From a virus, in the IMG/VR virus record IMGVR_UViG_3300023178_000123, positions 1-37,206 of that record: DNA of 37,206 nt, one strand, 5' to 3'. The position numbers and the translations under genes were made by a program. The notes beneath the pieces were generated by a model, which did no database searches, was not told the origin of the DNA, and saw only the letters and a program-made list of their open reading frames with translations. Shown in pieces: positions 1 to 22,715 of this stretch (the stretch's first letter is position 1; every line of letters starts with the position of its first letter).

Positions 1-117
1 ACTACTGTTATACGTATCTAAATCGTAGACAGTTTCATCTTCGATAGTGAGATGAACATCGTCAGTTGGATTAAGACCGGTGATAGTAATAGTACTATCG
101 TTCTTTGATTGTGTCAT
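1..117 (-). CDS. Partial CDS, N-terminal 39 residues of an unknown protein
   Basis: An open frame begins with ATG at 117 and runs off the left edge without a stop. The peptide starts MTQSKNDSTITITGLNPTD and is rich in Thr, Asp and Ile, with a beta-strand-like pattern. It overlaps the C-terminal codons of the glycosyltransferase gene by 23 bases, typical of the tight packing here. I do not recognise the family; a small virion-associated or regulatory protein is possible, but only the missing part could show that. Confidence 0.5.
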   Translation of the reverse strand, partial: MTQSKNDSTITITGLNPTDDVHLTIEDETVYDLDTYNSS

Positions 118-1189
118 ACAAGGCTGCTCCGCTAAAAAACTCTTTGTTTAGTTTAGTACGTTGTTTGTCTAAACTTACAAGATAGTCTTCATAGTTTTCT
201 ACATAATCTCGAATCTTGTCAACTATCAAACCTCTATACTTTCTATAAGCAAAGTAATCTTCAGTCCATGCACTTGGATATTTAAATTCAGGCAGCGCCA
301 TTTCACTATAACTTAGTCTGTCTGGCACCATAGGAATAGCATTTACAAGTGCGCCTTCATACCAACTAATACCAAGTGTCTCTTGTAGGTTAGCACTAAA
401 CACTAGTTTTGCTTCACCTAGCAAGTTATGATATTCGTTTTTACTAAGAGAGCGTTCCTGACATACAACAAACTCATATTCAGGAAGTTGTTCTGCTAGA
501 TCACGGAATATTTCAACTTGTTTCTCAGGAGCAATACGATGCGGGAAAAGTATAAGGTTACGCTTTTCCATGCCTTTGTAACTATCTAGAGTATTTTTTA
601 AATACTCCATAGGCCAGCCAACACGTTTAATCTTATCACACTCGCCAGCAAGTGCTTCTGCTACATCATCTTCTTCCCAAGGATTATCAAGTCCAAACAA
701 TGTACGCACAAACATCTCAATATGAAAATCTGTAGCAAAGAAGTTATCATCGTATGTGTAATACATGCTCTTTTCAGCATGTCTTACCCAAGGTTTGTCA
801 CCTATTAATCTTCCCAAGAAATCTTGTGGGTCATAACTACCAGCATGCCAGAGGCCACCAATGCGAATGCTAACACCCAGTAACTCTGCCATGTAGCGTA
901 GTTGTATAACTGTAGGATTCCAGGCATCGGTATACAAAAAATAGTCGCCAGTCTTAACTTTCCCTTCACAGAACATTTCTCCTATCTGCTCGAGTTGTTT
1001 TGACTTGTACACATTAGTACCGCCAAAGTTTAGGAAAGCCCCAGGCGTAGTAGCCTGAGGCGTTTCCCCACCACTAATTACAACGACTTCTTCGTTTGTA
1101 GATCTTAGCAGTTGCTTTGGAAGAAAGTCCTTCCATTGTTTAGTGTAACGTGTGTCTACTGCTTCAATATCTACAACATAGATAGTCAT
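95..1189 (-). CDS. Glycosyltransferase, GT-B fold, GT4-like
   Basis: This 364-residue protein is a likely cytoplasmic GT-B glycosyltransferase moving a sugar from a nucleotide-sugar to an unknown acceptor. The C-terminal half has the family-1/GT4 layout: LILFPHRIAPEKQVEIF near residue 215 (the strand and helix before the donor site), EYEFVVCQE, then FSANLQETLGISWYEGAL near 265-282, which matches the donor-binding E-x7-E region. The N-terminal half is divergent. A good Shine-Dalgarno (GGAGGAATTAATG) sets the start. Acceptors could be modified DNA bases, as in T4 alpha/beta-glucosyltransferases, or a surface glycan; the nearby DpdA-like gene makes DNA worth considering. The substrate is unknown. 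Confidence 0.75.
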   Translation of the reverse strand: MTIYVVDIEAVDTRYTKQWKDFLPKQLLRSTNEEVVVISGGETPQATTPGAFLNFGGTNVYKSKQLEQIGEMFCEGKVKTGDYFLYTDAWNPTVIQLRYMAELLGVSIRIGGLWHAGSYDPQDFLGRLIGDKPWVRHAEKSMYYTYDDNFFATDFHIEMFVRTLFGLDNPWEEDDVAEALAGECDKIKRVGWPMEYLKNTLDSYKGMEKRNLILFPHRIAPEKQVEIFRDLAEQLPEYEFVVCQERSLSKNEYHNLLGEAKLVFSANLQETLGISWYEGALVNAIPMVPDRLSYSEMALPEFKYPSAWTEDYFAYRKYRGLIVDKIRDYVENYEDYLVSLDKQRTKLNKEFFSGAALYDTIKER

Positions 1190-1401
1190 TAATTCCTCCG
1201 ATTATTTGCTTTTCGAGCAGCATTCCGAGTTTTTGCTCGAAGCCAACCTTGATACTTCTGGTAGGCCTGCCAGTTAGCGTCTTTGTTATTGTACAAGGCC
1301 TTTTCGTCAAAGACCTTACCTTCGAAACGACAATAATCAAGATACGCATCAAGATCATTGAACACTTTTTGATACGCAGCACGATTAAATTCAACTGCCA
1401 T
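1189..1401 (-). CDS. Conserved small phage protein of unknown function
   Basis: This 70-residue protein has an acidic/aromatic N-terminal half (AAYQKVFNDLDAYLDYCRFE) and a strongly basic C-terminal tail (RAKTRNAARKANNRRN). The arrangement resembles a small family common in marine T4-like phages, from memory and not tested. It overlaps the glycosyltransferase start by one base (TAATG), so the two are probably translationally coupled. The basic tail could bind nucleic acid, but no domain is recognised. Confidence 0.75.
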   Translation of the reverse strand: MAVEFNRAAYQKVFNDLDAYLDYCRFEGKVFDEKALYNNKDANWQAYQKYQGWLRAKTRNAARKANNRRN

Positions 1402-1417: not shown

Positions 1418-1909
1418 TTATGATGGTTTTGGATAAAAGATGTTACAGCCATTTTCTCCGTCTTCGGAGACTTCAATTTCAACAAAGCGGCCGGGGTACT
1501 TTGCAGAAATCTTTTCATACAAATCGTCTGCAATCATTTCACACGATTTGTAATCTAGAAGGAGCACTTCGTCACTGGACGAATTTTCTCCATCATTTGT
1601 TCCAGAATAGAGCCGTTCGAGCCAGCGTTTGAACTGGATGAATTCGATGTCTCTATCGTTGTGTTGCACCTGGATACGCACCCGGAAGTGGAAAATATGA
1701 CGATGAGGATAGCCAAGAAACGATACATCATCCCAATCTCCTGTTGCTAGTTTAGGGTCGTCAAGTGCTGCGGGATATTTATGAATACCTTCTTTCTTAA
1801 AGGTAACCCATATACTTCTTTGTACTTTGTTTTCCATATACATTTTATGGTCTTCTTCTCTCATTCTACGTAACATGTAGTCGTGATAACGTTCATTTTG
1901 TTCATTCAT
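1418..1909 (-). CDS. QueD/PTPS-like protein (6-pyruvoyl-tetrahydropterin synthase fold)
   Basis: The protein is 163 residues if it starts at 1909. The pattern fits the QueD/PTPS family: an early His (H43 in GIHKYP), an HxH pair (H69 and H71 in YPHRHIFHF) as a possible zinc triad, the strand DIEFIQFKRWL in place of the usual GMVIDF-x-LK, a SCEMIADDLYEKI helix where NPTxENIA normally lies, and a late Glu in VEIEVSEDG. QueD makes carboxytetrahydropterin for 7-deazaguanine synthesis. The Cys normally four residues before HxH is absent (Leu65), so catalysis is doubtful. The promoter at 1908-1936 has a -10 box that overlaps the ATG at 1909, so the true start may be an internal Met (1876, 1864, 1843 or 1837). 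It lies one gene away from, and downstream of, the DpdA-like gene. Confidence 0.6.
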   Translation of the reverse strand: MNEQNERYHDYMLRRMREEDHKMYMENKVQRSIWVTFKKEGIHKYPAALDDPKLATGDWDDVSFLGYPHRHIFHFRVRIQVQHNDRDIEFIQFKRWLERLYSGTNDGENSSSDEVLLLDYKSCEMIADDLYEKISAKYPGRFVEIEVSEDGENGCNIFYPKPS

Positions 1910-1936
1910 TATAAACTCATTTTATAACTTTGTCAA
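1908..1936 (-). promoter_or_regulatory. Consensus sigma-70-type promoter, QueD-like gene
   Basis: Read on the minus strand: TTGACA (1936-1931), 17 bases, TATAAT (1913-1908). The -10 box overlaps ATG at 1909, so the transcript would begin near 1901 and the used start codon is probably downstream. Confidence 0.7.
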
Positions 1937-2450
1937 GGCCATATTTTGTCCAATCTGTAAATTTTTCTCTATCTAACAGATCGTGCAAACTATGGCACCA
2001 AACGCCAGGGTTAGATGCCTTAAAGTCTTTGTCGTCAATCTTCAACATAGTGTTGTAGTTCCACTGTTTCACGTAAGGCACCGGAACGCGAAGTTGTGGG
2101 ATAAAATTATCATATTCGGTTAAACCGCTTTCTAAAAATGCTTCAGCAAGTGCAATAGGAATGTCAAGTGAACAAAGATATCCTTCAGCCAGAAACTCCT
2201 TAATCATATCTTCCCATAATGCCCACTCATCACCATCTTCTGGAAAGTTTGTACCTGGATTAAAACTGTGGTTAGCACCAAAGAAAATGTGTTTACAGTT
2301 GTGTTTGTTATACCAATGCAATATAATATCAGTATCTTGAATACCGTCTATAAACAATGTTTGTAACCCATATGCAGGTGTTTTTTCAACTTCTACACCT
2401 GTAAACATTGTAGGTGTATCTAAACTGCCTTCTGCGTAATCTCGCTTCAT
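1917..2450 (-). CDS. Conserved hypothetical protein next to deazaguanine-type genes
   Basis: This is a soluble 177-residue protein without signal peptide or membrane segment. It begins MKRDYAEGSLDTPTMFTGVE and alternates predicted strands and helices (GLQTLFIDGIQDTDIILHWY, then HIFFGANHSF near 75-84), with late aromatic and His-containing segments (PGVWCHSLHDLLDRE). I do not recognise the fold. Its start overlaps the end of the DUF465-like gene (ATGA type), and it sits between DpdA-like and QueD-like genes, so a role in the same pathway is possible by context only. Confidence 0.75.
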   Translation of the reverse strand: MKRDYAEGSLDTPTMFTGVEVEKTPAYGLQTLFIDGIQDTDIILHWYNKHNCKHIFFGANHSFNPGTNFPEDGDEWALWEDMIKEFLAEGYLCSLDIPIALAEAFLESGLTEYDNFIPQLRVPVPYVKQWNYNTMLKIDDKDFKASNPGVWCHSLHDLLDREKFTDWTKYGLDKVIK

Positions 2451-2650
2451 CCTAGTGCCTTCAATTCTGTTTCTAGTCTATGTATCTCGTCTTTTAACCA
2501 AAGTTTCTTAGTTTTAAGAATATTCACTTTCTGATCACTTTCAAATTTATTATACATTAATTTTATTTCATCGTCAAGAGCTCTATGCTTTCGATAAAGT
2601 TCTTGCAAGTAAACTGCAATTTTATTGTGACGCTCCGTGAAATTGCTCAT
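2447..2650 (-). CDS. DUF465 (YdcH-like) small coiled-coil protein
   Basis: At 67 residues it matches the DUF465/YdcH pattern: an early helix with KHRALDDEIK, a short polar turn, then LKTKKLWLKDEIHRLE (the family hallmark is an LKxxKLxLKDEI-type helix). These proteins form small helical hairpins; their function is poorly defined. It overlaps the DpdA-like C-terminus by 29 bases and the next gene by four, so it sits inside one operon. A promoter-like TTGACG-N17-TATAAT lies inside this gene (2549-2577). Confidence 0.75.
   Translation of the reverse strand: MSNFTERHNKIAVYLQELYRKHRALDDEIKLMYNKFESDQKVNILKTKKLWLKDEIHRLETELKALG
2549..2577 (-). promoter_or_regulatory. Sigma-70-type promoter candidate inside the DUF465 gene
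   Basis: Minus strand: TTGACG, 17 bases, TATAAT. It lies inside a coding region, about 100 bases before the 1917..2450 gene, so coincidence is possible, but the 17-base spacing matches the other promoters. Confidence 0.45.
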
Positions 2651-4184
2651 CTTCTAATTCCTCAAGTTTATGTTCTTCTGCCTCTGAAAAGACACCGTCT
2701 TCGTGTAGATCTTCATCTTCTGAATCTTCTACATCAAATAATTCAGCAAACTTAGGTCTTGCACTAATAATTTTTTTACCAGTGTACCCTCGTGTACCAC
2801 GTATAGTCATAAAAAACTTTTCATTGTCTTCAATAACTTGTAACGAATCTTCTAGTGTAGTCTTTGAGAAAATTGCTTCCACAACATCTCTAAAAAATAC
2901 CCTGTCAAATTGCTCTTGAACAAGCATGCGCGGAATGATTCCGTTGTCGTATTGTCTATTTGCTTCTTGTACTGCATTTATGTGACTCCAAACATTATGC
3001 CCCATTTGGATAGCATATGAAAAACTATCCCAAGACGTTTTGCCTTCTTTGCCTATTTTATTTAGGTCTCCTGGAGCATAAGTGCAAACGTCTGATACTT
3101 TGAGTTCAGCAGTGACTGGACTGTCTTCAAAGTTTTTAAATACCCCATCTGATATAACAGCGTCTCTAAACAAGCGGTTGTCTGTAGCATATTTTTTATC
3201 GTCAACCGACGGTACCATTCGATATGTCCATTTCGACCTATCCTCTGTTTCATTTTGAATGTATATTTGTCCGTTTGCGGTTGCGAGAAAAGGACTAGCA
3301 CAATCAAAAGTAATAGTAAAGTTTTCATTGTAATACTTTCTCACAGCACGTTGAATATCTGTTAGTAGTAATGCCCATTCTAGTTTTGAAGTACCTAGGA
3401 AGTGCATTACATCGTGTACACCTTTTTGTAGCAAGCCGTCGTAGTGTAGTGTAACAATACGTCTTAGTGCAAGTTCCAGGTCACACATGTTTTGTCCACC
3501 CATTGACCATCCATTAAAGTGTGTATCTGGATATTTTGCAGGGTCACAAAAGTCTTTCATTTGTTCGTACCAGTCATCTGCTTCTGGATGGTTTTCTCCT
3601 TGTAGTACGTTTAAGAACTTACAAGCCCCAGTACGATGTTTCATAAAGTATTCGTTGTTTATACGTGTTGCATCAACTGCTTCTTGATAAGTTGAAATAC
3701 CAGTTGCTTCTGCACCTTTGGGTGAACGTGCCACCCAAGCAGGAATATCAAGTATCATTCCGTAGTCCATGTAAGCATCCATCCAACGCAACACACCATC
3801 ACGTTTCTTTTGTGCTTTTGGACAGTTAGGATCTTTCCAATCACCTTCCCAAACACCCTTACCAATTTGGAAGCCGCCTGAGTCGCCTAGTAGCCAAGTG
3901 TTCTCTCTATCTCTATTACGTACCATATCTTCTTTTGGAACAAACTTAGTTGTGTCTAAGTCAGCATGTCCTGCAGAGTATAGAGTCCATTTGTAAGTAA
4001 ATGCACCTTCTTGTGCATTAAGATAGTTTAAACTCTCAACACCATTAGCAAAATTGCTTGGAATACGATTTTTGTCTACGTATTCATCATGACGCTGTTT
4101 ACCAACGTAAGTGGCATAGAAGCCACTTAACGCTGGAAGAAAAACAGCATAGTCATTTTGTGTTGCAGTTAAATCTCTGTTCAT
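2622..4184 (-). CDS. dpdA: DpdA-like transglycosylase (TGT-fold, 7-deazaguanine insertion into DNA)
   Basis: This 520-residue protein has the core motifs of the tRNA-guanine transglycosylase superfamily in order: LLGDSGGFQIG (residues 98-108, with general acid/base Asp101), LNVLQGE (191-197, TGT has xxVQGG), GWSMGG (225-230, TGT GYAIGG), and ITFDCASP...NGQIY (291-308, with nucleophile candidate Asp294). Phage-type TGT-like proteins of this sort (DpdA) exchange guanine for a 7-deazaguanine base in DNA, whereas TGT acts on tRNA. The usual Cys-rich zinc site is not clear. The C-terminal 45 residues are strongly acidic. It overlaps the sliding clamp by one base (TAATG). A DNA substrate is inferred from phage context; an RNA substrate is not excluded. 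Confidence 0.8.
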   Translation of the reverse strand: MNRDLTATQNDYAVFLPALSGFYATYVGKQRHDEYVDKNRIPSNFANGVESLNYLNAQEGAFTYKWTLYSAGHADLDTTKFVPKEDMVRNRDRENTWLLGDSGGFQIGKGVWEGDWKDPNCPKAQKKRDGVLRWMDAYMDYGMILDIPAWVARSPKGAEATGISTYQEAVDATRINNEYFMKHRTGACKFLNVLQGENHPEADDWYEQMKDFCDPAKYPDTHFNGWSMGGQNMCDLELALRRIVTLHYDGLLQKGVHDVMHFLGTSKLEWALLLTDIQRAVRKYYNENFTITFDCASPFLATANGQIYIQNETEDRSKWTYRMVPSVDDKKYATDNRLFRDAVISDGVFKNFEDSPVTAELKVSDVCTYAPGDLNKIGKEGKTSWDSFSYAIQMGHNVWSHINAVQEANRQYDNGIIPRMLVQEQFDRVFFRDVVEAIFSKTTLEDSLQVIEDNEKFFMTIRGTRGYTGKKIISARPKFAELFDVEDSEDEDLHEDGVFSEAEEHKLEELEDEQFHGASQ

Positions 4185-4924
4185 TACTTACTCTGTGCTG
4201 GAAGAATATAGTCGTATTTGGTTAGTCCTGAATCAACAGTAATTTGCATTGCACCTTGATCAGAAATGCTCATAGTAATGTCACCGTTAAGTCCTAGAAT
4301 TGCTTGCACTTGTGCAATAGGCCAACTCCAAGTATGTGTAAGTGAACCTTCAACACCGGTTTCAAAAACAAACGAACCTGCGTGTGTACTTGCATCACCA
4401 AAACTGAACACTAAGTCAGTTACTCCGCCGGTGTCTTTTGTTGATACGTTGAATGTCGGCTCTTCGGCGTGTGCAGCCGCTTGTAGTTTTAAACGTCCAA
4501 TAGCACCAATGCTTGGCTTAAATGTTACATTCCAGCCTGCACCCTTAAACTTAACAGTTTTAAGTTTTTCTTCAATGATTGCTTTGTTCATAAAGCGATA
4601 ATCATTTTGGAAGTCTCCTGCATCGTTTTCAAAGTGAATGTGCGTTGGTACAGTTTCGCCATTACGTTCTGCTTCAACGACTTGAATCTTTGCATCTTTT
4701 TGATACTCCGGATTTTTCAAATGCAATGCTAACTTGTCTAAGTTAGGCATACCAAACGTGCCTTTGAACTCTGCAACAGGTGAGTGTGTTGATGCACTTA
4801 AAATAACGCTACGATCTTCTGCCATAGCATCAATCTGTGTGCTTTCGTCGTTGCTTACTTTTACTAGACTAAGAAAACCTAGTGAATGTGTGTGAGCAAC
4901 GATATCTTGTAAAATGTCTTTCAT
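4184..4924 (-). CDS. 45: DNA polymerase sliding clamp (T4 gp45-like)
   Basis: At 246 residues the length fits T4 gp45 (228). The protein is predicted to form a trimeric ring that tethers the polymerase and, in T4, also activates late transcription. Supporting traits are the weakly conserved repeated alpha/beta design with few cysteines, the early helix HTHSLGFLSLVKV, and the closing strand TKYDYILPAQ typical of marine T4-like clamps. It is next to the DpdA-like gene and has its own consensus promoter inside the upstream epimerase gene (4952-4980), fitting early or middle expression. Its loader subunit gp44 lies at 32014-32919; gp62 is not in the window. Confidence 0.85.
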   Translation of the reverse strand: MKDILQDIVAHTHSLGFLSLVKVSNDESTQIDAMAEDRSVILSASTHSPVAEFKGTFGMPNLDKLALHLKNPEYQKDAKIQVVEAERNGETVPTHIHFENDAGDFQNDYRFMNKAIIEEKLKTVKFKGAGWNVTFKPSIGAIGRLKLQAAAHAEEPTFNVSTKDTGGVTDLVFSFGDASTHAGSFVFETGVEGSLTHTWSWPIAQVQAILGLNGDITMSISDQGAMQITVDSGLTKYDYILPAQSK

Positions 4925-5700
4925 GTGACTGTTTCTCCATTTGTAAATTTTATTATATTGCCTAAATCTTTGTTTGTCAAGAAATTTTCTACTGAGTATT
5001 TAGGTTTAAATCCGAGGCTACGAATTTTTTCCATATTTGCACAAGTCCAATTACGCTCGTTTGGAGTTGTTAATCTAACAGGTAGATCAGGTGCAAAATC
5101 TTGTATACGTACAGGCGTACCGGTACCAATATCAATGTCTCCTGTGTACTTACTTTTCATACACAGCTCGATAGCATCACAGAGATCTTCTACATGTATA
5201 AAATCTCTATAATGATTTGTAACGTACTCTAGTTCTCCATCTTGTAGTTTTTGCATAAACATACCTTTGCGAGGAGTACTTGAATAAACGGTATGGAACC
5301 GCATACAAAGGGTATTAGGATAACAAGTGGCTGCTTCCTCCATGATATACTTACTGGCAGCGTATGGATTAAGATGTGGTTCGTATGCTGAACTTGAACT
5401 AGCAATAAGCATACGTGTACCTTCGTATCTTGATAATAAACGTTTTGTAACTTCTACATTATTGCGCCAATAGCCTGCAGGGTCTTTTATAGATTCTCTT
5501 ACACCACTTTTACCTGCTAGATGTATAATTAAATCAAATTCTTCTGGTAAGTCACATGTAAGTAAATCTTGAGTGTTATTTAACCCGTCTCGATCCCAAC
5601 CGTCTTGTAAATCAAAACCAACTACACTATGTTTTTTAGTAAGCCGCCTTAGCAAATAACTGCCTATAAATCCTCTATGTCCTGTTAGCATGATTTTCAT
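4921..5700 (-). CDS. NAD(P)-dependent sugar epimerase/dehydratase (extended SDR)
   Basis: This nucleotide-sugar-modifying SDR begins MKIMLTGHRGFIGSYLLRRL, with the GxxGxxG dinucleotide-binding motif. Later come DLIIHLAGKSGVRES and the catalytic YAASK (Y-x3-K) in NPYAASKYIMEEAA near residue 118. At about 259 residues it is short for the UDP-glucose 4-epimerase/GDP-fucose synthase group. I chose ATG at 5700, which makes an ATGA overlap with the phosphomannomutase stop; a longer frame to 5727 exists but lacks support. It follows a phosphomannomutase, so a GDP-mannose-derived substrate is a reasonable guess. Confidence 0.82.
   Translation of the reverse strand: MKIMLTGHRGFIGSYLLRRLTKKHSVVGFDLQDGWDRDGLNNTQDLLTCDLPEEFDLIIHLAGKSGVRESIKDPAGYWRNNVEVTKRLLSRYEGTRMLIASSSSAYEPHLNPYAASKYIMEEAATCYPNTLCMRFHTVYSSTPRKGMFMQKLQDGELEYVTNHYRDFIHVEDLCDAIELCMKSKYTGDIDIGTGTPVRIQDFAPDLPVRLTTPNERNWTCANMEKIRSLGFKPKYSVENFLTNKDLGNIIKFTNGETVT
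4952..4980 (-). promoter_or_regulatory. Consensus sigma-70-type promoter for sliding clamp
   Basis: Minus strand: TTGACA (4980-4975), 17 bases, TATAAT (4957-4952), located in the last codons of the epimerase gene and just upstream of the sliding clamp. A perfect match in both boxes. Confidence 0.8.
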
Positions 5701-6416
5701 AGTGCATCTCCCATTTCTTGTAACCATTGCAAATATTCTTTTGTTTGAGTCCAGCCTGTAACATGAAAGTTTCTGCCAGTTTTATTTGCTTCTGCTAGTG
5801 GATAATCATTTCCTGCAGGGTCTTGTCTATCACCGAAAAAATAAATTTTGTCTTCAATATCAAAATCTTTTATTATTTGAGATTTATTTAATCCACAAGG
5901 TCCGATATCAATTCCTGTTTCACCACCCGGACGGGCTTCTAATTCAGGAAACAGTTTATTAAACCATTCTGCAATATTATCACGTTCGTTTGTCTTTTTG
6001 TCCCATTCTACATACTGGGCACGTTGTTTTCTAGTTGCGTTTCTACCTACAATGCTAAAATTAACCATACCAGGTCGATTTTCAAAATGCAAACCTGTTC
6101 GTAATGGAAATTCACTTTGTGATAGTTGTTCATCTAGCCACTCGTGTGCAGGAAGAGGAAGTATCCATTTATTTGAGTGGATGTTTACACCTTTTTCCCA
6201 AACATCATTTCCGTTACAGTTGTAGATTCTTTTTACACTATTACACAGATCTTGACCGATTTGCTCGAGTGTTTTGGGATAATCACTTCCAGTAACTAAG
6301 TATACATGATTGCTTTGACAAAACTGTCCGAACCAAGAGGCAAATTCTTGGTCAATAGATTGCCGGCTTGGTGTCAAAGTTCCGTCTACATCAAATATAA
6401 ACTTATTTCCCGTCAT
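5697..6416 (-). CDS. Phosphomannomutase, eukaryotic PMM1/PMM2 type (HAD superfamily)
   Basis: This 239-residue HAD-IIB enzyme would convert mannose-6-phosphate to mannose-1-phosphate. The catalytic DVDGTLTPSRQ near residues 9-19 includes the Asp nucleophile and second Asp. VYLVTGSDYPK, the cap-domain signature ENRPGMVNFSIVGR (human PMM2 has a near-identical segment), and IYFFGDRQDPAGNDYPL all fit PMM, whose animal and yeast members are about 245 residues. Most bacteria use the unrelated ManB/AlgC type instead. It overlaps a small coiled-coil gene upstream by 14 bases and the epimerase by four. Confidence 0.9.
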   Translation of the reverse strand: MTGNKFIFDVDGTLTPSRQSIDQEFASWFGQFCQSNHVYLVTGSDYPKTLEQIGQDLCNSVKRIYNCNGNDVWEKGVNIHSNKWILPLPAHEWLDEQLSQSEFPLRTGLHFENRPGMVNFSIVGRNATRKQRAQYVEWDKKTNERDNIAEWFNKLFPELEARPGGETGIDIGPCGLNKSQIIKDFDIEDKIYFFGDRQDPAGNDYPLAEANKTGRNFHVTGWTQTKEYLQWLQEMGDAL

Positions 6417-6531
6417 CTGTAATATGCGACTCTAGCCTTTCTACTTTTTTAGTTAACATCTCTAATAGATTTTTTAAATCTTCAATTTCTTCTTGAAGAC
6501 GCTTGAGATCCCATAAATTAAAATCATTCAT
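6403..6531 (-). CDS. Small coiled-coil protein, 42 residues
   Basis: A short frame from ATG at 6531 to TAA at 6403 encodes a helical peptide with heptad-like Leu/Ile positions (LKRLQEEIEDLKNLLEML, then KKVERLE). It overlaps its neighbours on both sides, as real genes here do, and fills what would otherwise be a 110-base gap. The function is unknown; it may dimerise or act as an adaptor. Confidence 0.6.
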   Translation of the reverse strand: MNDFNLWDLKRLQEEIEDLKNLLEMLTKKVERLESHITDDGK

Positions 6532-6694
6532 TCGGTTTTTTCTCTATGCATAGTGCAACCTCACCTTGCGTAAAGTTGGCTTCTAATACTGCTTGTTCAA
6601 TATAGCAGTCGTTACTGGTTTTGTATTCGTCGTAAAAGGTTACTTTTATTTCTTCTTGCCCAATTACAAAACTTAAAACAAACAAAACCCACAT
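6524..6694 (-). CDS. Small secreted protein with signal peptide
   Basis: From the internal ATG at 6694 the 56-residue product begins MWVLFVLSFVIGQEE, a short hydrophobic signal-like segment with a possible cleavage near Gly12/Gln13. The exported part has two Cys (DCYIEQAVL... and ALCIEKK), which could form one disulfide. That start overlaps the upstream gene's TAA by one base (TAATG); an upstream ATG at 6733 gives a less plausible N-terminus. The function is unknown. Confidence 0.6.
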   Translation of the reverse strand: MWVLFVLSFVIGQEEIKVTFYDEYKTSNDCYIEQAVLEANFTQGEVALCIEKKPNE

Positions 6695-6864
6695 TATCTT
6701 AAACTCGCTTGATTTTGTAACAACCAAATACATTCACCGATATCAACAGGATTAGTGAATCCTTTGTCTACACATTTGGTATACGGATGTTCGGCTAAAC
6801 CAATTTGGTATCCAATAACAACTGCTATTGCAATCCATAATAGGTCCCAAAGTACTCTTTTCAT
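6694..6864 (-). CDS. Small membrane-anchored or secreted protein
   Basis: This 56-residue frame from ATG at 6864 begins MKRVLWDLLWIAIAVVIGYQ: two basic residues then about 16 hydrophobic ones, fitting a signal anchor or signal peptide. The remaining 35 residues have two Cys (TKCVDKG and IGECIWLL). It overlaps its neighbours on each side, and is followed by another small two-Cys exported protein. The pair may act in the periplasm, but no family is recognised. Confidence 0.65.
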   Translation of the reverse strand: MKRVLWDLLWIAIAVVIGYQIGLAEHPYTKCVDKGFTNPVDIGECIWLLQNQASLR

Positions 6865-7052
6865 CCTTGCTGTGCCTTATGCTGTGCAATACTTGCTGCT
6901 TTTACAAGTTCTGAAAAACGGTCTGCTGTTTCTCTTAGTTCAGAACCAAGGTATTCGTTTTTAGCCTTTTCTGCATCTCGGGCCATGTTATGCAACAGTA
7001 TAACCATATCACCGTCTGTTAGTGCTTTTCTTCCTTCAGGTAGTTGTCCCAT
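6861..7052 (-). CDS. Small hypothetical helical protein
   Basis: A 63-residue soluble, mostly helical protein begins MGQLPEGRKALTDGDMVILL, followed by HNMARDAEKAKNEYLGSELRE in overlapping order. It has an ATGA overlap with the next gene and a good Shine-Dalgarno (AAGAGAGGACG). No recognisable domain is present. It lies in an operon driven by the promoter at 7750-7778. Confidence 0.65.
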   Translation of the reverse strand: MGQLPEGRKALTDGDMVILLHNMARDAEKAKNEYLGSELRETADRFSELVKAASIAQHKAQQG

Positions 7053-7066
7053 TTCGTCCTCTCTTA

Positions 7067-7513
7067 TTAATTTGACTCTGGTGTTGAATTAATCGGTCCA
7101 TCGCGTTCTACTTTTGCTACTCGTTTTCTCAAATCACTTGATGAAAAGCGATGATCTCGTTTGTTAAAATACAAGTCGATTTCTCTTCTTCGACATGTGT
7201 CTCTACCGGTGAAGTCTTTGTCTCTATATTCCTCACCTAGTATTCTAACATCAATATGATACATTCTTAGAATATCTTCTAAATCGTTCTCGGTGATGTA
7301 TGGAATAATTTCATCTACGTAACTTACTGCTTTTAACTGAGTATACCTTTCTACAACAGTCTGTATCGGGGCATTCTTCTTAGGTCGATCCAAACTAGGA
7401 TCAATTTGCAATCCAACTATAAGATAGTCACACTGTTCTTTTGCTTCACGTAGCATTTGTACGTGACCAGCGTGTAATAAATCAAATGTCGAACAAGTAA
7501 ATCCTACTTTCAT
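7067..7513 (-). CDS. Cytidylyltransferase-like nucleotidyltransferase (TagD/GCT-like)
   Basis: This 148-residue enzyme has the HxGH nucleotidyltransferase signature in FDLLHAGHVQMLREAK (residues 10-25) and a C-terminal RFSSSDLRKRV in place of the R-T-x-G-(I/V)-S-T-T segment. Its size fits glycerol-3-phosphate cytidylyltransferase (about 130 residues) or the RfaE/HldE adenylyltransferase domain. It would activate a small phosphorylated alcohol or sugar with CTP or ATP for a cell-surface or virion glycan. The start overlaps the upstream stop (ATGA). Confidence 0.85.
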   Translation of the reverse strand: MKVGFTCSTFDLLHAGHVQMLREAKEQCDYLIVGLQIDPSLDRPKKNAPIQTVVERYTQLKAVSYVDEIIPYITENDLEDILRMYHIDVRILGEEYRDKDFTGRDTCRRREIDLYFNKRDHRFSSSDLRKRVAKVERDGPINSTPESN

Positions 7514-7793: not shown

Positions 7794-8219
7794 ATGGACG
7801 ATGCATACACTCACGCTTTTTTCGGTGTTGTTCGTGAGACTCAAGAAGAAACGGGTTATCAATTACCAGTACATCTTGAGCATTACATCGTTGCGCTCTT
7901 AGCAATTCATATAGACAGACCTAATTGGGAACCTAAAGAGTCTTTTGCTGAGTCACTATTACAAGCACAAACAAGAAGAAATGCAAAAGAACTAGGCGAT
8001 ACATGTCTTTTTGTTACAGGGGTATTTCCAACATATGGAAGCAGGCGAGGTTTAAAACGAAACTACTTTCAAAATATAGGAAAAACTTCTTATAGCCAAG
8101 TCACAGGAGAACTTTTTGAAGATCTCTGTTCGCATTTTGACTTCTTAAGCGATTTTATTGATTTATCGATTAATTCTCCTCGTTCTCAAATTATCATCCA
8201 AAGTCGAACAAACTATTAA
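7794..8219 (+). CDS. Plus-strand conserved hypothetical protein
   Basis: A 141-residue soluble protein is one of only two plus-strand genes here. Visible features are LGDTCLFVTGVFPTYGSRRG near 84-103, a Tyr-rich middle and a final SHFDFLSDFIDLSI. Uncharacterised bacterial proteins with a similar GDTCLF...GVFP and HF-x-FLSDFI pattern come to mind, but I cannot test this. There is no Shine-Dalgarno; a late-type GATAAATA box sits exactly five bases before the ATG, so the mRNA may be leaderless. It converges on the DNA polymerase gene and overlaps its end by 26 bases. Confidence 0.7.
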   Translation: MDDAYTHAFFGVVRETQEETGYQLPVHLEHYIVALLAIHIDRPNWEPKESFAESLLQAQTRRNAKELGDTCLFVTGVFPTYGSRRGLKRNYFQNIGKTSYSQVTGELFEDLCSHFDFLSDFIDLSINSPRSQIIIQSRTNY

Positions 8220-10884
8220 ATGTATTGTGCTGTTTAGTATCTTCTAACGGATAATCTAGCACACCGATCAAATTATCTAGTTTGTTGTCAATAATTGTTT
8301 CCGCCATTGCTGCATCATCAAATGGAAGTTCCTTAAACCATTCTGGCAAACGTAATTCATCTGTAGGATATGCAACACTAGTAAATCCTAATGGGTTTGG
8401 TTTTAGTTTGCAAACAATAACTTTCATACCGTCTACAATCTCTTGCGAATACTTGTCGCCATTCATACGCTTGAGTGTGTTCCAGTTGATTGAAGCACGA
8501 ACGTGTCCGGGCATGTTTGCTTTGCCTTGTTTCTGTTCAAGACGCTGATAGTGTCCAATTTTGTTTGCACGTTTAGGCGAACCTTTTTCGTAGCCCGGAC
8601 GTTGTTCAAACTCTTTGCGGAATTCAGTAATACGTTGTAGTATTTCTTCTTGCGATTTGTCTTGCAACACCATAAGCAAGATTTCACTTAGAAACTCTTG
8701 CATAAACACAGGAGTATCTGAACGTCTCAGGTCTAAGCCCATAGCCTTAACCTTGCCTGGCTTGCCATCTACGTCTGAACGAAAACCTTCTGTGTCATAC
8801 ACTAATGCCGCATAACGCTTCTTAGTAATATACAATCCGCTTTCTGCAACAATTTCTCTACCTGCGGCAATAACGTCTGCACGGCTTTTTGGACAATGAA
8901 ATGCCTTGCCCATAAAGTCTATAAATGTACTGTTTGCTTCGTCTGCAACTTGATCATATAGTGTAATCACACTCTCTTTCGTCCAAGGAATAGTTCCTGC
9001 TTGAATTTCATCTTTTAGAACAGGATATGCACTAAAGTAAACAGAGTCAGTATCACCATAGATAACACTTTTACCTACATGATCATACTCGCCCGTAATA
9101 ACTTTGTTAACTTCTGCACTCATGTGCTTAACGATAGTACGACCTGTTAGTGTAGTAGACTGTCCTATCCTTTTGTCAAAAAATCTACAGCCAGGATTAA
9201 GAATGGCCCCGTAAAGAGAGTTAAGATTAATTTTTTTAACAAGTTGCCGCTTGTCCCAAAATGCAATCTCAGCATCATTGCCTGCATCTTTTGCCTTTTT
9301 AAGCATTTTCTGTAAGTCTTTTCGTTCTGCATACCACCTCTTCAAAATACCTGGGATAACTCCTTCAAACTCTGTAGTAAAAATAGTACCGTTTGAACTT
9401 AGCATCCAAGGCATACTGCTATCAAAAATAAGTTTATATAATTCTGCTCCGCTGAACACTTCGGTTTGTCCATTCTCAAAATCTACAGTTAGTGCAACGT
9501 CTTTGCGCTTCTCCATAACTGCTTCGTATTCTTCTGTGCTGAAGCGTCCTTCCCAACTACCTGCGAAAGATTTCTTTTTCAAATTCATGTCTTCGTGTAC
9601 ACGGGCTTCGCTAATCTCAGGACGTATTTGCCCTACAATAGTTTCCGGAGCCATGTTCAGCGCACGAATTACAGATGGATATAGTGAGTTCAAATCCATC
9701 GAACCAATCCACTTGTGAACACCCTTCTTAGGAAACGCAACATAAGCACCTGCGGCTTGTGTGTTTTCATCATCACGCTTTGGTCTGTTTGGAACTTGCA
9801 ATCCTCTGTGATGTGCTTCGTTAATAATTGCTTGCTCTGTAACAGCAACAGCACCCATTGTTGTTTGTAGAAGAACTGTGTTTGCGTGTGCAAGTTCGTT
9901 TGACAAGTCAATAAATCTTAGTTTCTTGTCTAATTTGTCAAGTAGTGCAACGTCTTGTCTGTTATACTCAATAAATGTTTCAAAGTCGTTGTTGTAAAGT
10001 TGATCTAATGTTCCTTCGTAGACTGTTTTGCGTTCTCCGACTTCAAGTTCGCCGATTGCATCAAGTCTGTATGTGTGTCTTTCTTCGTAGGTATATTTTC
10101 TATAAAGTTCAAGACTGTCGAGATGAACTCTTCCAACGAAATCATAAGTCTCGGACGTTTTTCCAAACTTCTCATACTCCCTTTTCTTAGGCATCTGCCC
10201 CCATAAGCAAAAACGACGGCAATCATCTTTGCTTAATACACGTTGAATACGATTTACAGTATACGGAACATCGTAACCTTCTGAGTTCCAACCGCTCTGT
10301 ACATCTGCATCTTCTAATAAGTCTAAGAACGTAAGCAGCATTTGCCGTTCACCGTTGCCGTCTGCATCGTTATCAAACAGAATTACATCATCGCCCCAAC
10401 GCTCCTTGCACATTTTTTGTGCATCTTCAAGAGGTAATCCTTTTGGCGGAACAGCAAGAGTGATAAGTGCATTAAGCCACTGTAAGCATACAGTGATAGC
10501 AGTGATTGGCATAAACGGATCTTCAACTGGTGCGAATCCTCGCTCCGGATCAAAGTCTGTCTCAATATCCCAAAACGCAATGTTTAGTTTAGGTGCGTCT
10601 TGGTTCAAATAGTTTTCACTTAAACATTGGAAGATTGGATTAATGTCGCTTTCGAACAAATCTTTGCCTTTGTTAATGGCAACCTCTTTGCGAAAGTCTT
10701 TTGTGTTTTTACAAAGTACACGACTTAGTGGGTCTCCGTACACACTTTTGTACTTGCCCTTAGGGTCTTTGTAATAAAATGTATATTTTGCAGGATATTC
10801 GTGGTAGTGTCTTTTGCCATCGCGGCGTTCTACTACACGAATAATATCGGAATCGCGATCAAAGAAAGCGTCTACGTAACTCAA
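8194..10884 (-). CDS. 43: Family B DNA polymerase with 3'-5' exonuclease (T4 gp43-like)
   Basis: This replicative polymerase has every key motif (numbering from an alternative ATG at 10920): Exo I FWDIETDFD (Asp118, Glu120), Exo II WNSEGYDVPY (Asp217), Exo III YNRQDVALLD (Asp323), Pol A SMDLNSLYPS (407-416), Pol B KKINLNSLYG (562-571) and Pol C YGDTDSVYF (621-629). The TTG start at 10884 is preferred because GAGGAG lies six bases before it and the protein then begins SYVDAFFDRD; ATG at 10920 has no Shine-Dalgarno and adds 12 residues. A perfect TTGACA-N17-TATAAT lies upstream. It works with gp45 and gp44. There is no intein or split. Confidence 0.95.
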   Translation of the reverse strand: MSYVDAFFDRDSDIIRVVERRDGKRHYHEYPAKYTFYYKDPKGKYKSVYGDPLSRVLCKNTKDFRKEVAINKGKDLFESDINPIFQCLSENYLNQDAPKLNIAFWDIETDFDPERGFAPVEDPFMPITAITVCLQWLNALITLAVPPKGLPLEDAQKMCKERWGDDVILFDNDADGNGERQMLLTFLDLLEDADVQSGWNSEGYDVPYTVNRIQRVLSKDDCRRFCLWGQMPKKREYEKFGKTSETYDFVGRVHLDSLELYRKYTYEERHTYRLDAIGELEVGERKTVYEGTLDQLYNNDFETFIEYNRQDVALLDKLDKKLRFIDLSNELAHANTVLLQTTMGAVAVTEQAIINEAHHRGLQVPNRPKRDDENTQAAGAYVAFPKKGVHKWIGSMDLNSLYPSVIRALNMAPETIVGQIRPEISEARVHEDMNLKKKSFAGSWEGRFSTEEYEAVMEKRKDVALTVDFENGQTEVFSGAELYKLIFDSSMPWMLSSNGTIFTTEFEGVIPGILKRWYAERKDLQKMLKKAKDAGNDAEIAFWDKRQLVKKINLNSLYGAILNPGCRFFDKRIGQSTTLTGRTIVKHMSAEVNKVITGEYDHVGKSVIYGDTDSVYFSAYPVLKDEIQAGTIPWTKESVITLYDQVADEANSTFIDFMGKAFHCPKSRADVIAAGREIVAESGLYITKKRYAALVYDTEGFRSDVDGKPGKVKAMGLDLRRSDTPVFMQEFLSEILLMVLQDKSQEEILQRITEFRKEFEQRPGYEKGSPKRANKIGHYQRLEQKQGKANMPGHVRASINWNTLKRMNGDKYSQEIVDGMKVIVCKLKPNPLGFTSVAYPTDELRLPEWFKELPFDDAAMAETIIDNKLDNLIGVLDYPLEDTKQHNTFNSLFDFG

Positions 10885-15755: not shown

Positions 15756-15926
15756 TTAAAATTGATTCATATCAAATCCTGTTTCAGGATCTGTATTTTT
15801 ATTTTTATAATAATTTTTCCAATATTCTTGCCGTTCGTTGGCACTAGCTCGACGTTTTTCGTGTTCTTTTATTGTTCTGACGTAGTGTTCTACTTCTTCT
15901 TTCGTCCACTCTTCATGTTTGCGCAC
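15756..15926 (-). CDS. Small charged hypothetical protein, GTG start
   Basis: A 56-residue frame from GTG at 15926 (TTG at 15929 is an alternative) ends at TAA 15756, immediately before the next gene's ATG at 15755. The peptide is helical and charged (HEEWTKEEVEHYVRTIKEHE) and ends in NTDPETGFDMNQF. It overlaps the ParB-like gene by 37 bases. Filling an otherwise 134-base hole and abutting its neighbour supports it. The function is unknown. Confidence 0.55.
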   Translation of the reverse strand: MRKHEEWTKEEVEHYVRTIKEHEKRRASANERQEYWKNYYKNKNTDPETGFDMNQF

Positions 15927-16798
15927 CAATGATACATCCTCGCTTTTTCACCTGAGCTGTTTTTTGCTCTTTTACGTAATGCTGTAACACTACCGTTACA
16001 ACTAGCACCAGCACGTTTTACACGCCCTGGACGACTTTTGCCTTTCTTCTTACCGTCAGCAAAGTTTTCATTCAATCCAAGTTTATCAACCATTATTTCT
16101 AACGCTGAATCTACATCATTTAAACCATTTTCTTCTTTTGTTTTCTCATACCAACTTCTTACAAAGTTTGATGCTGCGTGTCCATAAGTATCTGGAGCCA
16201 GCATCATTTGATAAAGAACTTGATCAGGTGCTTCTCGTTGGGACCTAACAAATTTTCTAAGACTATCTAGGTCTGTACTTTCATTATATATTTTGCCTTT
16301 CTTCTTACCGTCAGCAAAGTTTTCTTCTACACTTTCTGGAACATCATTACGCCAAGTTAAATCCTTTGGATCAGCAATAACTGCACGTATTTTATCTGCA
16401 CCTGCTTTTAGGTGTGCAAAGTATCTATGATGTCCATCAACAATTAGCCACTTACCTTTGTGTGACACGATTACAATAGGCTTAATTTTTTTACCTGCTT
16501 TGATCTTGTCGACAAACCTCATCATGTTGTCGTGATTGTCTTTGGGATCCATTTTGTCTGCAGGTTCAAACGGTGTTAGTTTAGATACGTCTACTATTTT
16601 TACTGGTTGCTTTTTATAATATTTGTCATCAACGTCTGCGCCTTGATACTCGGGATTAGTCCACATAGTTATTTCTGCGCCTTCGTTTTTCTTACGTCCT
16701 GCACAATGAGCTTTTTGACTAAACCCTTTTGGATTAGAACAGTTGATTGAACGCTTATATTTTTGCGACCACTTTTCTGTAACTTCTAACCATCTCAT
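15890..16798 (-). CDS. ParB/Srx-like domain protein with basic Cys-containing ends
   Basis: This 302-residue protein has a ParB/sulfiredoxin-like core, IKPIVIVSHKGKWLIVDGHH followed by RYFAHLKAG (about 105-133), whose G-x-H-R motif suits nucleotide or DNA binding. Around it are basic Cys-containing modules: INCSNPKGFSQKAHCAGRKK at residues about 18-37, and a C-terminal one with Cys in ASCNG and HWCANMKSGRKKK. A peptide ENFADGKKKGK occurs twice, encoded by an exact 34-base repeat 255 bases apart. It has several LxE-like sites and sits among capsid-targeted proteins, so packaging in the head is plausible. Function is inferred, not shown. Confidence 0.7.
   Translation of the reverse strand: MRWLEVTEKWSQKYKRSINCSNPKGFSQKAHCAGRKKNEGAEITMWTNPEYQGADVDDKYYKKQPVKIVDVSKLTPFEPADKMDPKDNHDNMMRFVDKIKAGKKIKPIVIVSHKGKWLIVDGHHRYFAHLKAGADKIRAVIADPKDLTWRNDVPESVEENFADGKKKGKIYNESTDLDSLRKFVRSQREAPDQVLYQMMLAPDTYGHAASNFVRSWYEKTKEENGLNDVDSALEIMVDKLGLNENFADGKKKGKSRPGRVKRAGASCNGSVTALRKRAKNSSGEKARMYHWCANMKSGRKKK
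16036..16324 (-). repeat. Exact 34-base direct repeat within the ParB-like gene
   Basis: Copies at 16036-16069 and 16291-16324 are identical and 255 bases (85 codons) apart, in the same frame. They encode the peptide ENFADGKKKGK twice. Confidence 0.9.
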
Positions 16799-19780: not shown

Positions 19781-20476
19781 CTATTTATCTATATTTGACT
19801 TATAAACTACATGATCGATACGGCGTATATTATCACCTATAATAATATTGATTATAGAAAGTACTTTTTCTGTTTTTACAAAGAAATAATAACCATCTAC
19901 AAACCCATGAGAGTGCAAACTTTCAAGAGCTTTTTTACCTATGCGTACTTTGTCAGGATTATTTTCTGCCCATTTGGCAAAACTGCTGTAATTTCTTATA
20001 TTACATCCTAAAGTTACTTTTATAGGCCATTCTACAGGATTAGGAGAAATAATAATATTAGGTTTTATTTCATTTATAACGTTTGGATCAGGCCGATAAA
20101 ATTCTAATCTACGTCTATTACTAATACCCTTGGCTATTTTATTAAGTAGTTCTTCGCTATTAGCGAAAACGGTTATTCCGCCCCAAGATTCTACACGTAT
20201 ACGATAGTCTTCTTTTGTTCTAAGAAGTGTAGCATATAAGTGTCTTGCTTCAATATAATCTTCTTCTCGAATCTTTTTAACTGTGCGCCAAATTGGAATC
20301 TCCATAGGCAACCCTTCTCGATGGAATAGCCTAAGTTCGTCTAGTTTTTGTCTAGCAAGACTTAGGCGACCATCTTTTTGAAACTCAGTTCTAAATATAG
20401 TGTTGAGTTCGTTAGAAAAGTTTAACTTATATAGATACTTGTTATAAAACAGTTTAGTTGTTTCATAGTATCTCAA
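19781..20476 (-). CDS. Conserved hypothetical protein, TTG start
   Basis: From TTG at 20476 (GAGGAAG upstream) the 231-residue protein begins MRYYETTKLFYNKYLYKLNF; a longer form starts at TTG 20491. It is basic, aromatic and alpha/beta (RIRVESWGGITVFANSEELL and LEFYRPDPNVINEIKPN). No signal or membrane segment, and no motif I can assign. It overlaps the ClpA end by about 14 bases, so it is coupled to the chaperone genes, though its C-terminal neighbour is a late virion gene. Confidence 0.7.
   Translation of the reverse strand: MRYYETTKLFYNKYLYKLNFSNELNTIFRTEFQKDGRLSLARQKLDELRLFHREGLPMEIPIWRTVKKIREEDYIEARHLYATLLRTKEDYRIRVESWGGITVFANSEELLNKIAKGISNRRRLEFYRPDPNVINEIKPNIIISPNPVEWPIKVTLGCNIRNYSSFAKWAENNPDKVRIGKKALESLHSHGFVDGYYFFVKTEKVLSIINIIIGDNIRRIDHVVYKSNIDK
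19782..19789 (-). promoter_or_regulatory. Late-type promoter box, leaderless geometry
   Basis: Minus strand GATAAATA, then GTTAT, then ATG at 19776. This is the same five-base distance as at 7781, with no Shine-Dalgarno. Confidence 0.6.
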
Positions 20477-22715
20477 CTTTTTCTTCCTCAACCGATTCGA
20501 TCTTGAGGGTTATTTCACCATCGTTTACATCAATGGTTACTTTGCCACCGTTCTTAAGATCTCCAAACAGCATCTGTCTTGACAGCGGACGCTTGATATC
20601 CTTATCAATTACACGTTGTAGAGGACGAGCTCCGTTTTTAGGGTCAAAGCCTTTGTCTACTAGATAATCAAGTGTATCGTCTGTAACAGTAATATCGATG
20701 TCTTTGTCCTTGACCATGTTTTTAAGTTCAAGTAAGAACTTACCAACAATTTTAAGCATGACAGGATGTCCTAGTTTAGCAAACGTAATTACACCATCAA
20801 GTCTGTTGCGGAATTCAGGTGCAAAGAACCGCTTGAATTCAGTATCTTCATATCCAGCATCTTCGTCGCCACCAAAACCAATAGCACCTTTCTCTGCTTG
20901 AGCAGCACCAAGGTTAGTTGTAAGGATAAGTGTACAGTTACGTGCATCTGCTTCTTTGCCATTAGAGCCTGTTACTCTACCATTATCCATCACCTGCAAT
21001 AGAATTTGTGAAACATCTGGATGTGCTTTTTCAATTTCATCAAGTAATAGTACACAATTAGGTGCTTCTTGTAGTTTTTCAATTAGCAAACCGCCTTTTT
21101 CTTCGTGTCCTACATATCCTGGAGGTGAACCAAGTAGTTTAGCAACTGAATGTTTCTCCATGTATTCACTCATATCAAAACGTACAAGTTTTACACCAAG
21201 ATTCTTTGCAAGTGCTTTTGCTGTTTCAGTTTTACCTGTACCAGTTGGCCCCATAAACACAAATGCACCTACTGGTTTATCATCTGGTTTAAGTCCTGCT
21301 TGGCTAACAAGGATCTTATCAACAATTGATTCAATTGCTTCGTCTTGTCCATATACAACCTGCTTGAGATTATCCTCAAGATTTTTAAGATTTTCTGCTT
21401 CACGCTCTGCGACTTGTTCTGCAGGCAAGTCTAACATTTTAGCAAGTTCAAAATGTATGCTCTCAGCAGTTACAATCTTTTCTTCTTCAGGATTGTCATT
21501 TACTTTGAATCTTGCACACGCAACATCAATTAGGTCAATTGCCTTATCCGGTAGTTTTTTATCACTTTGATACTTAACAGATAGTTTAATTGCAGCATCA
21601 ATAGCGTCATCTGTGATAGTGGTTGTGTGATAATCTTCGTAATACTTTTTAATACCACGTAAAATATCTTGTGTAGTTTCTTTTGAAGGTTCACCAATAA
21701 CTACACGTTGGAATCGACGCATCAACGCACGATCTTTTTCAAAGTATTTGCGATATTCTTCCCATGTAGTTGATGCTACAACTTTTAGGTCACCTTTTGC
21801 AAGTGCAGGTTTAAGCATATTAGCCAAGTCGTTTGCATTGCTGCTTCCACCTGCTCCTGCACCGTTCATCATGTGTGCTTCGTCAATAAACATAATAGTC
21901 TTGCCTTCACGGATAAGACCGTTCAGTACAAGTTTAAAACGTTCTTCAAAATCGCCACGATATTTTGAACCAGCAAGCATAGCACCAATGTCTAGATTAT
22001 AAACTTTGTATTCTTTTAAGAAACTAGGAACATTTCCCTGCTCAATGTTAAACGCAAGTCCTTCTGCAATAGCAGTTTTACCTACACCTGGATCACCTAC
22101 CATAAGTACATTGTTTTTACTACGACGACCTAGTGCAAGTGCAAGGCTTTCTAGTTCGTCTGAGCGTCCGATAATAGGATCAACTCTACCACGCTTAACT
22201 TCTTCATTAAGATTTGTTGTAAATGTTTTAATAGCACGGCGCATTTCATTTGTTAGTTCTGGATCTTCTAACAAAGATTCCTGTGCTTCGTTGTTAATAA
22301 ATTCACTAAACTTTTCTTTTTCTAAACCACCTTTCTCTAGGTAGTAAGTACCAACACTTTTCTTTTCGTGTAGTATGCTCATTAATACATCAGTAAGATC
22401 AATATGATTACGTCCTGCAAACAATACTTGTGTAAACGCTCTGTTCAACGCTCTTTCTACACTTGCTGTTTTCTTAGGCTTATATTTTTTTAACTCAATT
22501 TTAATGTCATCGCTTTGTGTTTTTAAGTGATGTTCTAAATTTGCTTTGATATAATCAATGTCAGCACCGTACATCTTCATTAATTTAAGAAAATTATCTT
22601 CGCAAAACATCGCAAACAACAAGTGCTCAAGTGTGATGTATTCGTGTTGCAATTTTTTAGCGTCATTAACAGCCTTATCAAAAACTAATTGCAAATCTTT
22701 TGATGGTTCAACCAT
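20463..22715 (-). CDS. clpA: ClpA-like AAA+ unfoldase with two ATPase domains
   Basis: A full-length 750-residue Hsp100/ClpA (E. coli 758). N-domain (1-145) begins with KDLQLVFDKAVNDAKKLQHE and TLEHLLFAMF, typical of the ClpS- and substrate-binding domain. D1 has Walker A GDPGVGKT (207-214) and Walker B IMFIDEAHM (274-282). D2 has GPTGTGKT (489-496) and VLLLDEIEKAHPD (555-567), with MEKHSVAKLLGSPPGYVG as pore loop region. An IGF tripeptide (612-614) is the ClpP-docking loop. It would dock to host ClpP and unfold substrates; no phage ClpP is in the window. It directly follows DnaJ. Confidence 0.93.
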   Translation of the reverse strand: MVEPSKDLQLVFDKAVNDAKKLQHEYITLEHLLFAMFCEDNFLKLMKMYGADIDYIKANLEHHLKTQSDDIKIELKKYKPKKTASVERALNRAFTQVLFAGRNHIDLTDVLMSILHEKKSVGTYYLEKGGLEKEKFSEFINNEAQESLLEDPELTNEMRRAIKTFTTNLNEEVKRGRVDPIIGRSDELESLALALGRRSKNNVLMVGDPGVGKTAIAEGLAFNIEQGNVPSFLKEYKVYNLDIGAMLAGSKYRGDFEERFKLVLNGLIREGKTIMFIDEAHMMNGAGAGGSSNANDLANMLKPALAKGDLKVVASTTWEEYRKYFEKDRALMRRFQRVVIGEPSKETTQDILRGIKKYYEDYHTTTITDDAIDAAIKLSVKYQSDKKLPDKAIDLIDVACARFKVNDNPEEEKIVTAESIHFELAKMLDLPAEQVAEREAENLKNLEDNLKQVVYGQDEAIESIVDKILVSQAGLKPDDKPVGAFVFMGPTGTGKTETAKALAKNLGVKLVRFDMSEYMEKHSVAKLLGSPPGYVGHEEKGGLLIEKLQEAPNCVLLLDEIEKAHPDVSQILLQVMDNGRVTGSNGKEADARNCTLILTTNLGAAQAEKGAIGFGGDEDAGYEDTEFKRFFAPEFRNRLDGVITFAKLGHPVMLKIVGKFLLELKNMVKDKDIDITVTDDTLDYLVDKGFDPKNGARPLQRVIDKDIKRPLSRQMLFGDLKNGGKVTIDVNDGEITLKIESVEEEKVEIL

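Follow-up and report, generated by a model that had tools for sequence, protein, structure and literature searches.

The window analyzed here is a 37-kb linear virus record from IMG/VR (IMGVR_UViG_3300023178_000123; 37,206 nt, considered in full), containing a cassette that codes for a 520-aa DpdA-like transglycosylase (hereafter DpdA), a 163-aa QueD-like protein, a 177-aa protein (p177) and a glycosyltransferase (GT). The DNA of this phage very probably carries a deazaguanine modification, and it is quite likely that the modified base is a 7-deazaguanine introduced by a DpdA associated with the sliding clamp. The preliminary description of this region had also proposed 7-deazaguanine in DNA, which our results support over a modification of tRNA, with the chemistry deduced from the fold and residues of DpdA, the pathway genes, the absence of QueA and the DpdA tail. 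As a much more tentative idea, aquatic and jumbo phages with glycosylated 7-deazaguanine DNA could form a widespread class that includes the window, combining a clamp-tethered DpdA, a base made without QueC, a dedicated GT4-like enzyme and p177 as a helper. DpdA-based modification is already known; the limited literature searched made no mention of the window branch, of GT and p177 as partners or of a clamp-like tail, nor of any sugar-bearing deazaguanine in DNA.

We infer the chemical steps, the binding to the clamp and an anti-restriction function from the homology, fold, motifs, linkage and gene exclusion seen in sequences or models. FolE, QueD and QueE, encoded in relatives beyond the contig end or elsewhere in the genome, would make 7-carboxy-7-deazaguanine (CDG); on this, the 163-aa protein, a QueD paralogue with a zinc triad (DpdL-like, see below), would act instead of QueC, the most likely reaction being a decarboxylation to 7-deazaguanine. 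DpdA would exchange guanine for the modified base in replicated phage DNA, with D294 as nucleophile and D101 as acid/base, and its tail would bind the sliding clamp by means of a motif that the phage polymerase also has, the exchange thereby following the fork. The linked GT may glycosylate the modified base, perhaps assisted by p177.

Fold and active site of DpdA

The 520-aa product contains the motifs GDSGGFQ (with D101), VLQG, GWSMGG and FDCASP (with D294), as previously noted. Residues D101, D146, G196, H261, D294 and N397 were invariant in 19 of 19 representatives less than 70 % identical, and H396 was conserved in 18 of them, with the QG and GG motifs mostly kept among relatives. D101 and D294 align with the acid/base and nucleophile Asp residues of tRNA-guanine transglycosylases (TGT). 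The AlphaFold2 model of DpdA (pLDDT 81, pTM 0.83) matched in Foldseek the Zymomonas TGT (ZmTGT, 2nso; E 1.1e-6), a bacterial DpdA (7ui4; E 1.1e-5) and archaeosine TGT; the probability was 1.00 to TGT and DpdA, yet the TM-scores were modest (0.3-0.5).

Relationships were also traced through intermediates. In a small set searched by blastp, the window DpdA matches that of PhiXhv (E 8e-8), which in turn matches the TgtA model (E 7.8e-7). Likewise, it matches gp123 of phage ACP17 by hhalign (E 1.5e-5), and this protein matches the tgt_general model (E 4.6e-7) and is homologous to DpdA2 of Vibrio phage nt-1 (36 % identity, E 8e-38), whose DNA contains dPreQ0 (PMC6884629). The window protein is a divergent DpdA, from a branch distinct from both the DpdA2 of nt-1 and ACP17 and the DpdA of phage 9g.

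The preliminary description had pointed to the loss of the zinc site as a possible mark of a distinct branch. The loss itself is real, since the CxCxxC motif was not found in the window DpdA; however, it is equally missing from the DpdAs of 9g, nt-1, ACP17, BUCT, X1 and RHph, being usual among the phage DpdAs compared, and we have abandoned it as a distinguishing character. A base exchange of the TGT type was also anticipated there; the predicted fold, the catalytic residues, the FolE, QueD and QueE of relatives, the lack of QueA and the polymerase-like tail all speak for an insertion of 7-deazaguanine into DNA and not into tRNA.

A third transglycosylase-like type was observed in RHph_I1_18, Ahp1, D479 and Bakedbeans (L088:11080-12348), where it is accompanied by a DpdL-like protein but not by a GT; the RHph version is a fusion with a DUF3310 domain.

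The acidic tail and the sliding clamp

The acidic C-terminal tail of DpdA, already pointed out in the preliminary description, is real and predicted to be disordered (pLDDT <50 at residues 465-499). The motif F-x-x-L-F-[DE] occurs in this tail in 102 of 130 non-redundant relatives, with 0.2 expected from shuffles, and the PolB tails of the same phages end in the same kind of motif (82/118, with 1.9 expected), these shuffle figures being descriptive because the motif was spotted by eye before counting. Residues L482 (15/16) and F483 (14/15) are conserved, and the motif was not above chance in other pathway proteins. The tails of DpdA and PolB are, respectively, TLDELFE and SLDDLFE in ACP17, SFNSLFDVD and HFDSLFGW in PA5oct, and NNNDLFGW and NNTDLFDW in Vibrio phage 2.275.O; additionally, the DpdA of X1 ends in SLEELFG, and those of BUCT and 9g have the tails SLDSFFD and LQDLFDE.

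Polymerase tails of the T4 group (gp43 of T4 and RB69) bind the sliding clamp. The match between the motif of the DpdA tail and the C-terminus of the phage's own polymerase suggests that DpdA is tethered to the sliding clamp, which we consider probable. In phage Phosso, a gene annotated as a sliding clamp adjoins the DpdL-like and GT genes.

Among solved structures, tRNA TGTs are the nearest in fold, which would fit an enzyme altering tRNA wobble bases during infection. This role is nonetheless highly improbable: the bacterial DpdA was matched about equally (E 1.1e-5), the tRNA queuosine gene queA was found in 0 of 22 records, the zinc site is lost as in the other phage DpdAs compared, dpdA adjoins the clamp gene and polB, and the tail motif is shared with DNA polymerase. 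A DpdA acting as a client of the clamp, and exchanging bases behind the fork, would argue against tRNA as its substrate.

The DpdL-like protein and proposed synthesis of the base

The 163-aa protein had been described as QueD-like, and profile comparison does relate it to QueD (phrog_2389, weak, E 0.016; a moderate link to phage QueDs by hhalign, with pairwise E 1e-4 and probability 30 %). It is not, however, a QueD itself, but a zinc-triad paralogue whose best family is phrog_17812 (E 5e-33): H43, H69, H71 and E149 are invariant in 32 of 32 representatives, and the QueD catalytic Cys before the HxH motif was not found in the alignment. A predicted CDG decarboxylase was reportedly named DpdL by Cui and colleagues in 2023 (a study that PMC12783734 and PMC11515303 cite), with Cellulophaga phages involved, which served us only as a lead. 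Presumably in common with DpdL, the 163-aa family consists of small QueD paralogues in clusters with FolE, QueD and QueE and without QueC, and Cellulophaga phage phiST has a homologue in a FolE/QueD/QueE cluster.

The DpdL-like protein and QueC were mutually exclusive among named phages: eight with the DpdL-like protein lacked a real QueC (X1 has a sub-threshold match of 16 bits), whereas the four without it (2.275.O, PhiXhv, 9g and nt-1) all have QueC. The weak QueC matches in three marine contigs and X1 (15-23 bits) resemble other PP-loop proteins. FolE was found in 26 of 27 records of relatives, and QueD in all nine named phages as well as in 5 of 18 IMG/VR contigs; FolE, QueE and a purine phosphoribosyltransferase are situated a few kb downstream of the GT gene in relatives (e.g., QueE and FolE in contigs L002, L010 and L063). 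The mutual exclusion is what would be expected of an enzyme that processes CDG instead of QueC. Together with the FolE, QueE and separate QueD of relatives, it moderately favours an origin of the inserted base from the CDG branch, as 7-deazaguanine or the 7-carboxy derivative, over preQ0.

A standard system, in which DpdA inserts host-made preQ0 (or archaeosine) and the DpdL-like protein serves some other function, appears rather unlikely. Known phage DpdAs do insert preQ0 (PMC6884629), which hosts may supply, and the window-type DpdA homologues of Vibrio phage 2.275.O and PhiXhv are accompanied by QueC, but QueC is missing precisely where the DpdL-like protein is present, and present where this is missing.

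We also find it unlikely that the DpdL-like protein is not a CDG decarboxylase but a different kind of T-fold enzyme, or a subunit that pairs with the unusual phage QueD. The two proteins do look complementary: in phage QueDs the Cys is kept and part of the canonical His ligands is lost (AFRQW, HGY), and in the DpdL-like protein the Cys is missing and the His triad is intact. Nevertheless, PhiXhv has the same type of QueD, with a GAT-QueC pathway and without a DpdL-like protein, so this QueD does not seem to need the latter; a strict requirement of QueD for the DpdL-like protein was thus rejected. In the phage QueDs examined (L086, L087, L090, L101 and L102) the catalytic Cys is kept, HGY replaces HGH and, often, AFRQW replaces the first zinc His.

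Other genes appear in these clusters. A xanthine/guanine-type phosphoribosyltransferase (L002:12571-13107) occurs in many lineages (17/31 representatives), and may salvage the guanine released by DpdA or activate the deazaguanine base. A gene resembling HhH-GPD DNA glycosylases lies near FolE in L002 (L002:13052-13492), and a Phosso gene annotated as 'glycosylase' (L149:5017-5550) lies between the clamp and DpdL-like genes. There are large arrays of radical SAM genes in genomes G002, G004, G009 and G010 (corresponding to L063, L039, L033 and L002), with 23 matches in G002, far beyond the needs of QueE.

The glycosyltransferase and p177

In the GT, residues R218, K223 (donor-binding R/K) and E278 are conserved in 21 of 21 sequences, and QETLGISWYE conforms to an ExxxxxxxE-type motif. 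Most of its homologues match Glycos_transf_1 (E 1e-3 to 8e-12), the window GT itself reaching only E 0.13. Homologues were found in 19 of 50,697 phage records, and those examined (PA5oct, ACP17, X1, Phosso and PhiXhv) carry the deazaguanine pathway; a distant homologue is present in the BUCT-ZZ01 cluster. In PA5oct, ACP17, X1, BUCT-ZZ01, Phosso and the window, the GT gene lies next to or near the gene for the DpdL-like protein or DpdA, with varying other neighbours. In loci seeded with the DpdL-like protein, a GT was present together with 8 of 9 DpdAs of the window type and 7 of 10 of the DpdA2 type, and with 0 of 10 of the RHph type. Conversely, deazaguanine genes were present in all 106 loci seeded with two divergent GT homologues, which are related within each seed group and do not amount to 106 independent events.

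The preliminary description had speculated that the neighbouring GT decorates the base. Gene linkage bears out the partnership, and glycosylation of the modified base would be its possible, still tentative, outcome. A somewhat more doubtful option is that the GT serves another process, such as a virion or host-surface glycan, and merely neighbours the modification genes. This would agree with the nucleotide-sugar genes at 4921-7513, with the absence of GT from DpdL-like phages having an RHph-type DpdA and with the main weakness of the glycosylation proposal, namely that plain 7-deazaguanine, the product of a CDG decarboxylase, offers a GT no obvious attachment handle. It agrees less well with the constant presence of deazaguanine genes in the GT-seeded loci, with the pathway being carried by the examined named phages with GT, and with the GT staying near the DpdL-like or DpdA gene despite differing neighbours.

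A role of the GT as a queuosine-tRNA mannosyltransferase (QTMAN/GTDC1-like motif) was considered and dropped, because none of 16 records matched PF12038 (QTMAN_N) at E <= 1 and there was no convincing PDB match.

The 134 aligned sequences of p177 share invariant residues E20, E22, K137, D139, D140, W151, W167, Y170 and D173. The protein occurs with window-type DpdAs and also in ACP17; its AlphaFold2 model (pLDDT 81) retrieved no PDB match below E 0.001 in a fold search.

Besides the missing attachment handle, several observations weigh against the proposed modification. The preliminary description had suggested examining the 520-aa protein with family HMMs and by structure prediction: the predicted fold is that of TGT and DpdA, but sequence searches against Pfam, PHROGs, PADLOC, NCBIfam and PDB gave no real match, and because of this the homology to DpdA rests on fold, intermediates and motifs. 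By hhalign, similarity was marginal to both nt-1 DpdA2 (E 0.01, probability 4 %) and the E. coli TGT (E 0.002), and no profile similarity to 9g DpdA was found. The clamp-like tail is absent from nt-1 DpdA2 and from the RHph-type DpdAs. The genes for FolE, QueD and QueE are not in the window, which ends before the position of FolE and QueE in relatives, and neither FolE nor QueD was found in the 182-kb relative G001. The decarboxylase role of the 163-aa protein is putative, as is its identity with the DpdL reported by Cui and colleagues. Finally, in Xanthomonas phage PhiXhv-16 (L148:4669-7903) a divergent GT homologue is adjacent to GAT-QueC and a PIG-L deacetylase, which suggests an amino-sugar variant with an archaeosine-type pathway.

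Comparison with known systems

The window DpdA shares with phage DpdA2 (nt-1, Acidovorax phage ACP17 gp123 and Xanthomonas phage X1) the motifs DSGG, FDE/LD, QG and SYDS/FDC, the lack of CxCxxC and a FolE neighbour; moreover, DpdA2 of ACP17 and X1 adjoins the same DpdL-like protein and GT. In contrast, window-type proteins have 520 aa, differ in their motif variants, carry the FxxLFD of the tail internally and show no BLAST similarity to nt-1 DpdA2. The bacterial DpdA 7ui4, a DNA preQ0 insertase, has the same fold, but the window protein is only 12 % identical to it and does not match the NCBIfam DpdA model NF041059. With 9g DpdA (DpdA1) it has in common the active-site Asp residues, a clamp gene adjoining dpdA and the tail motif, whereas 9g has GAT-QueC and neither the DpdL-like protein nor the GT. 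The T4 alpha- and beta-glucosyltransferases, which glucosylate hydroxymethyl-pyrimidine, are comparable in the idea of a GT that decorates modified phage bases once the DNA has been replicated; the window GT is instead GT4-like, linked to a deazapurine pathway and of predicted activity.

Gene order and distribution

The 163-aa, 177-aa and 520-aa open reading frames are all on the minus strand, in agreement with the co-directional arrangement described before (Table 1). Those IMG/VR relatives with contigs extending far enough show again the order polB-clamp-DpdA-DUF465-p177-QueD-like-p70-GT, even with extra genes inserted. A scan of viral contigs seeded with the window DpdA gave at least 600 matches; the block from DpdA to GT was common, with few exceptions, to the best 80 of these loci, in which gene order was compared, wherever the contig reached.

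Table 1. Features of the modification cassette and its surroundings in the window.
Feature	Coordinates	Strand	Evidence
DpdA-like DNA-guanine transglycosylase, 520 aa, window-type branch	2622..4184	-	AlphaFold2 model, Foldseek, invariant catalytic residues
FAELFD motif, residues 479-484 of the acidic DpdA tail, putative sliding-clamp-binding peptide	2733..2750	-	Motif counts, residue conservation
T-fold protein of 163 aa, QueD-like (DpdL-like), with a putative role as CDG decarboxylase	1418..1909	-	phrog_17812, hhalign, conservation, QueC exclusion
p177, conserved 177-aa protein accompanying window-type DpdA and GT	1917..2450	-	Alignment of 134 sequences
GT4-like glycosyltransferase partner	95..1189	-	Alignment, Glycos_transf_1 in homologues, linkage
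Putative sliding clamp, directly upstream of dpdA and overlapping its start	4184..4924	-	phrog_12062, position
DUF465 small protein, 67 aa, between dpdA and p177	2447..2650	-	PF04325 (E 2e-9), conserved position
p70, conserved 70-aa protein between the DpdL-like gene and GT	1189..1401	-	Conserved position, homologues in non-marine clusters
PolB C-terminus NTFNSLFDFG, same kind of motif as the DpdA tail	8197..8226	-	Motif counts in PolB tails

The cassette is very common, with at least 600 matches in each of two separate viral-contig scans; scans seeded with the PA5oct DpdA gave no matches, and with the ACP17 GT only ACP17 itself. Named relatives are the jumbo phages PA5oct and Paride, Vibrio phage 2.275.O and Sinorhizobium phage Phosso and, more remotely, Xanthomonas phage PhiXhv and Erwinia phage Ep032. 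The sequences suggest that such a hidden, putative DNA armour is very common in water, and yet most of the cassette genes bear the annotation 'hypothetical', also in cultured phages, PA5oct and Paride among them. If correct, our reading would define a large new DpdA branch and propose a function for several unannotated families, and clamp tethering would physically account for the targeting of a base-exchange enzyme to new phage DNA. Sugar-bearing deazaguanine would be worth looking for in the cultured phages that have the cassette, being of relevance for restriction evasion and for sequencing bias in viral metagenomes.

The window also codes for PolB, a clamp loader, an endolysin and a thymidylate synthase, as well as an ATP-dependent protease-like ATPase (phrog_4871) and a ParB-like protein (within 20463-22715 and 15890-16798), and contains 0 tRNA genes. 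The nucleotide-sugar genes (epimerase, phosphomannomutase-like and cytidylyltransferase) are situated upstream of the clamp gene and are missing in some relatives that keep DpdA and GT. The same cassette was found on five contigs (L256-L260) binned into Marinimicrobia, archaeal, Rhodobacteraceae and Erysipelotrichaceae metagenome-assembled genomes; the five are probably viral contigs within these bins.

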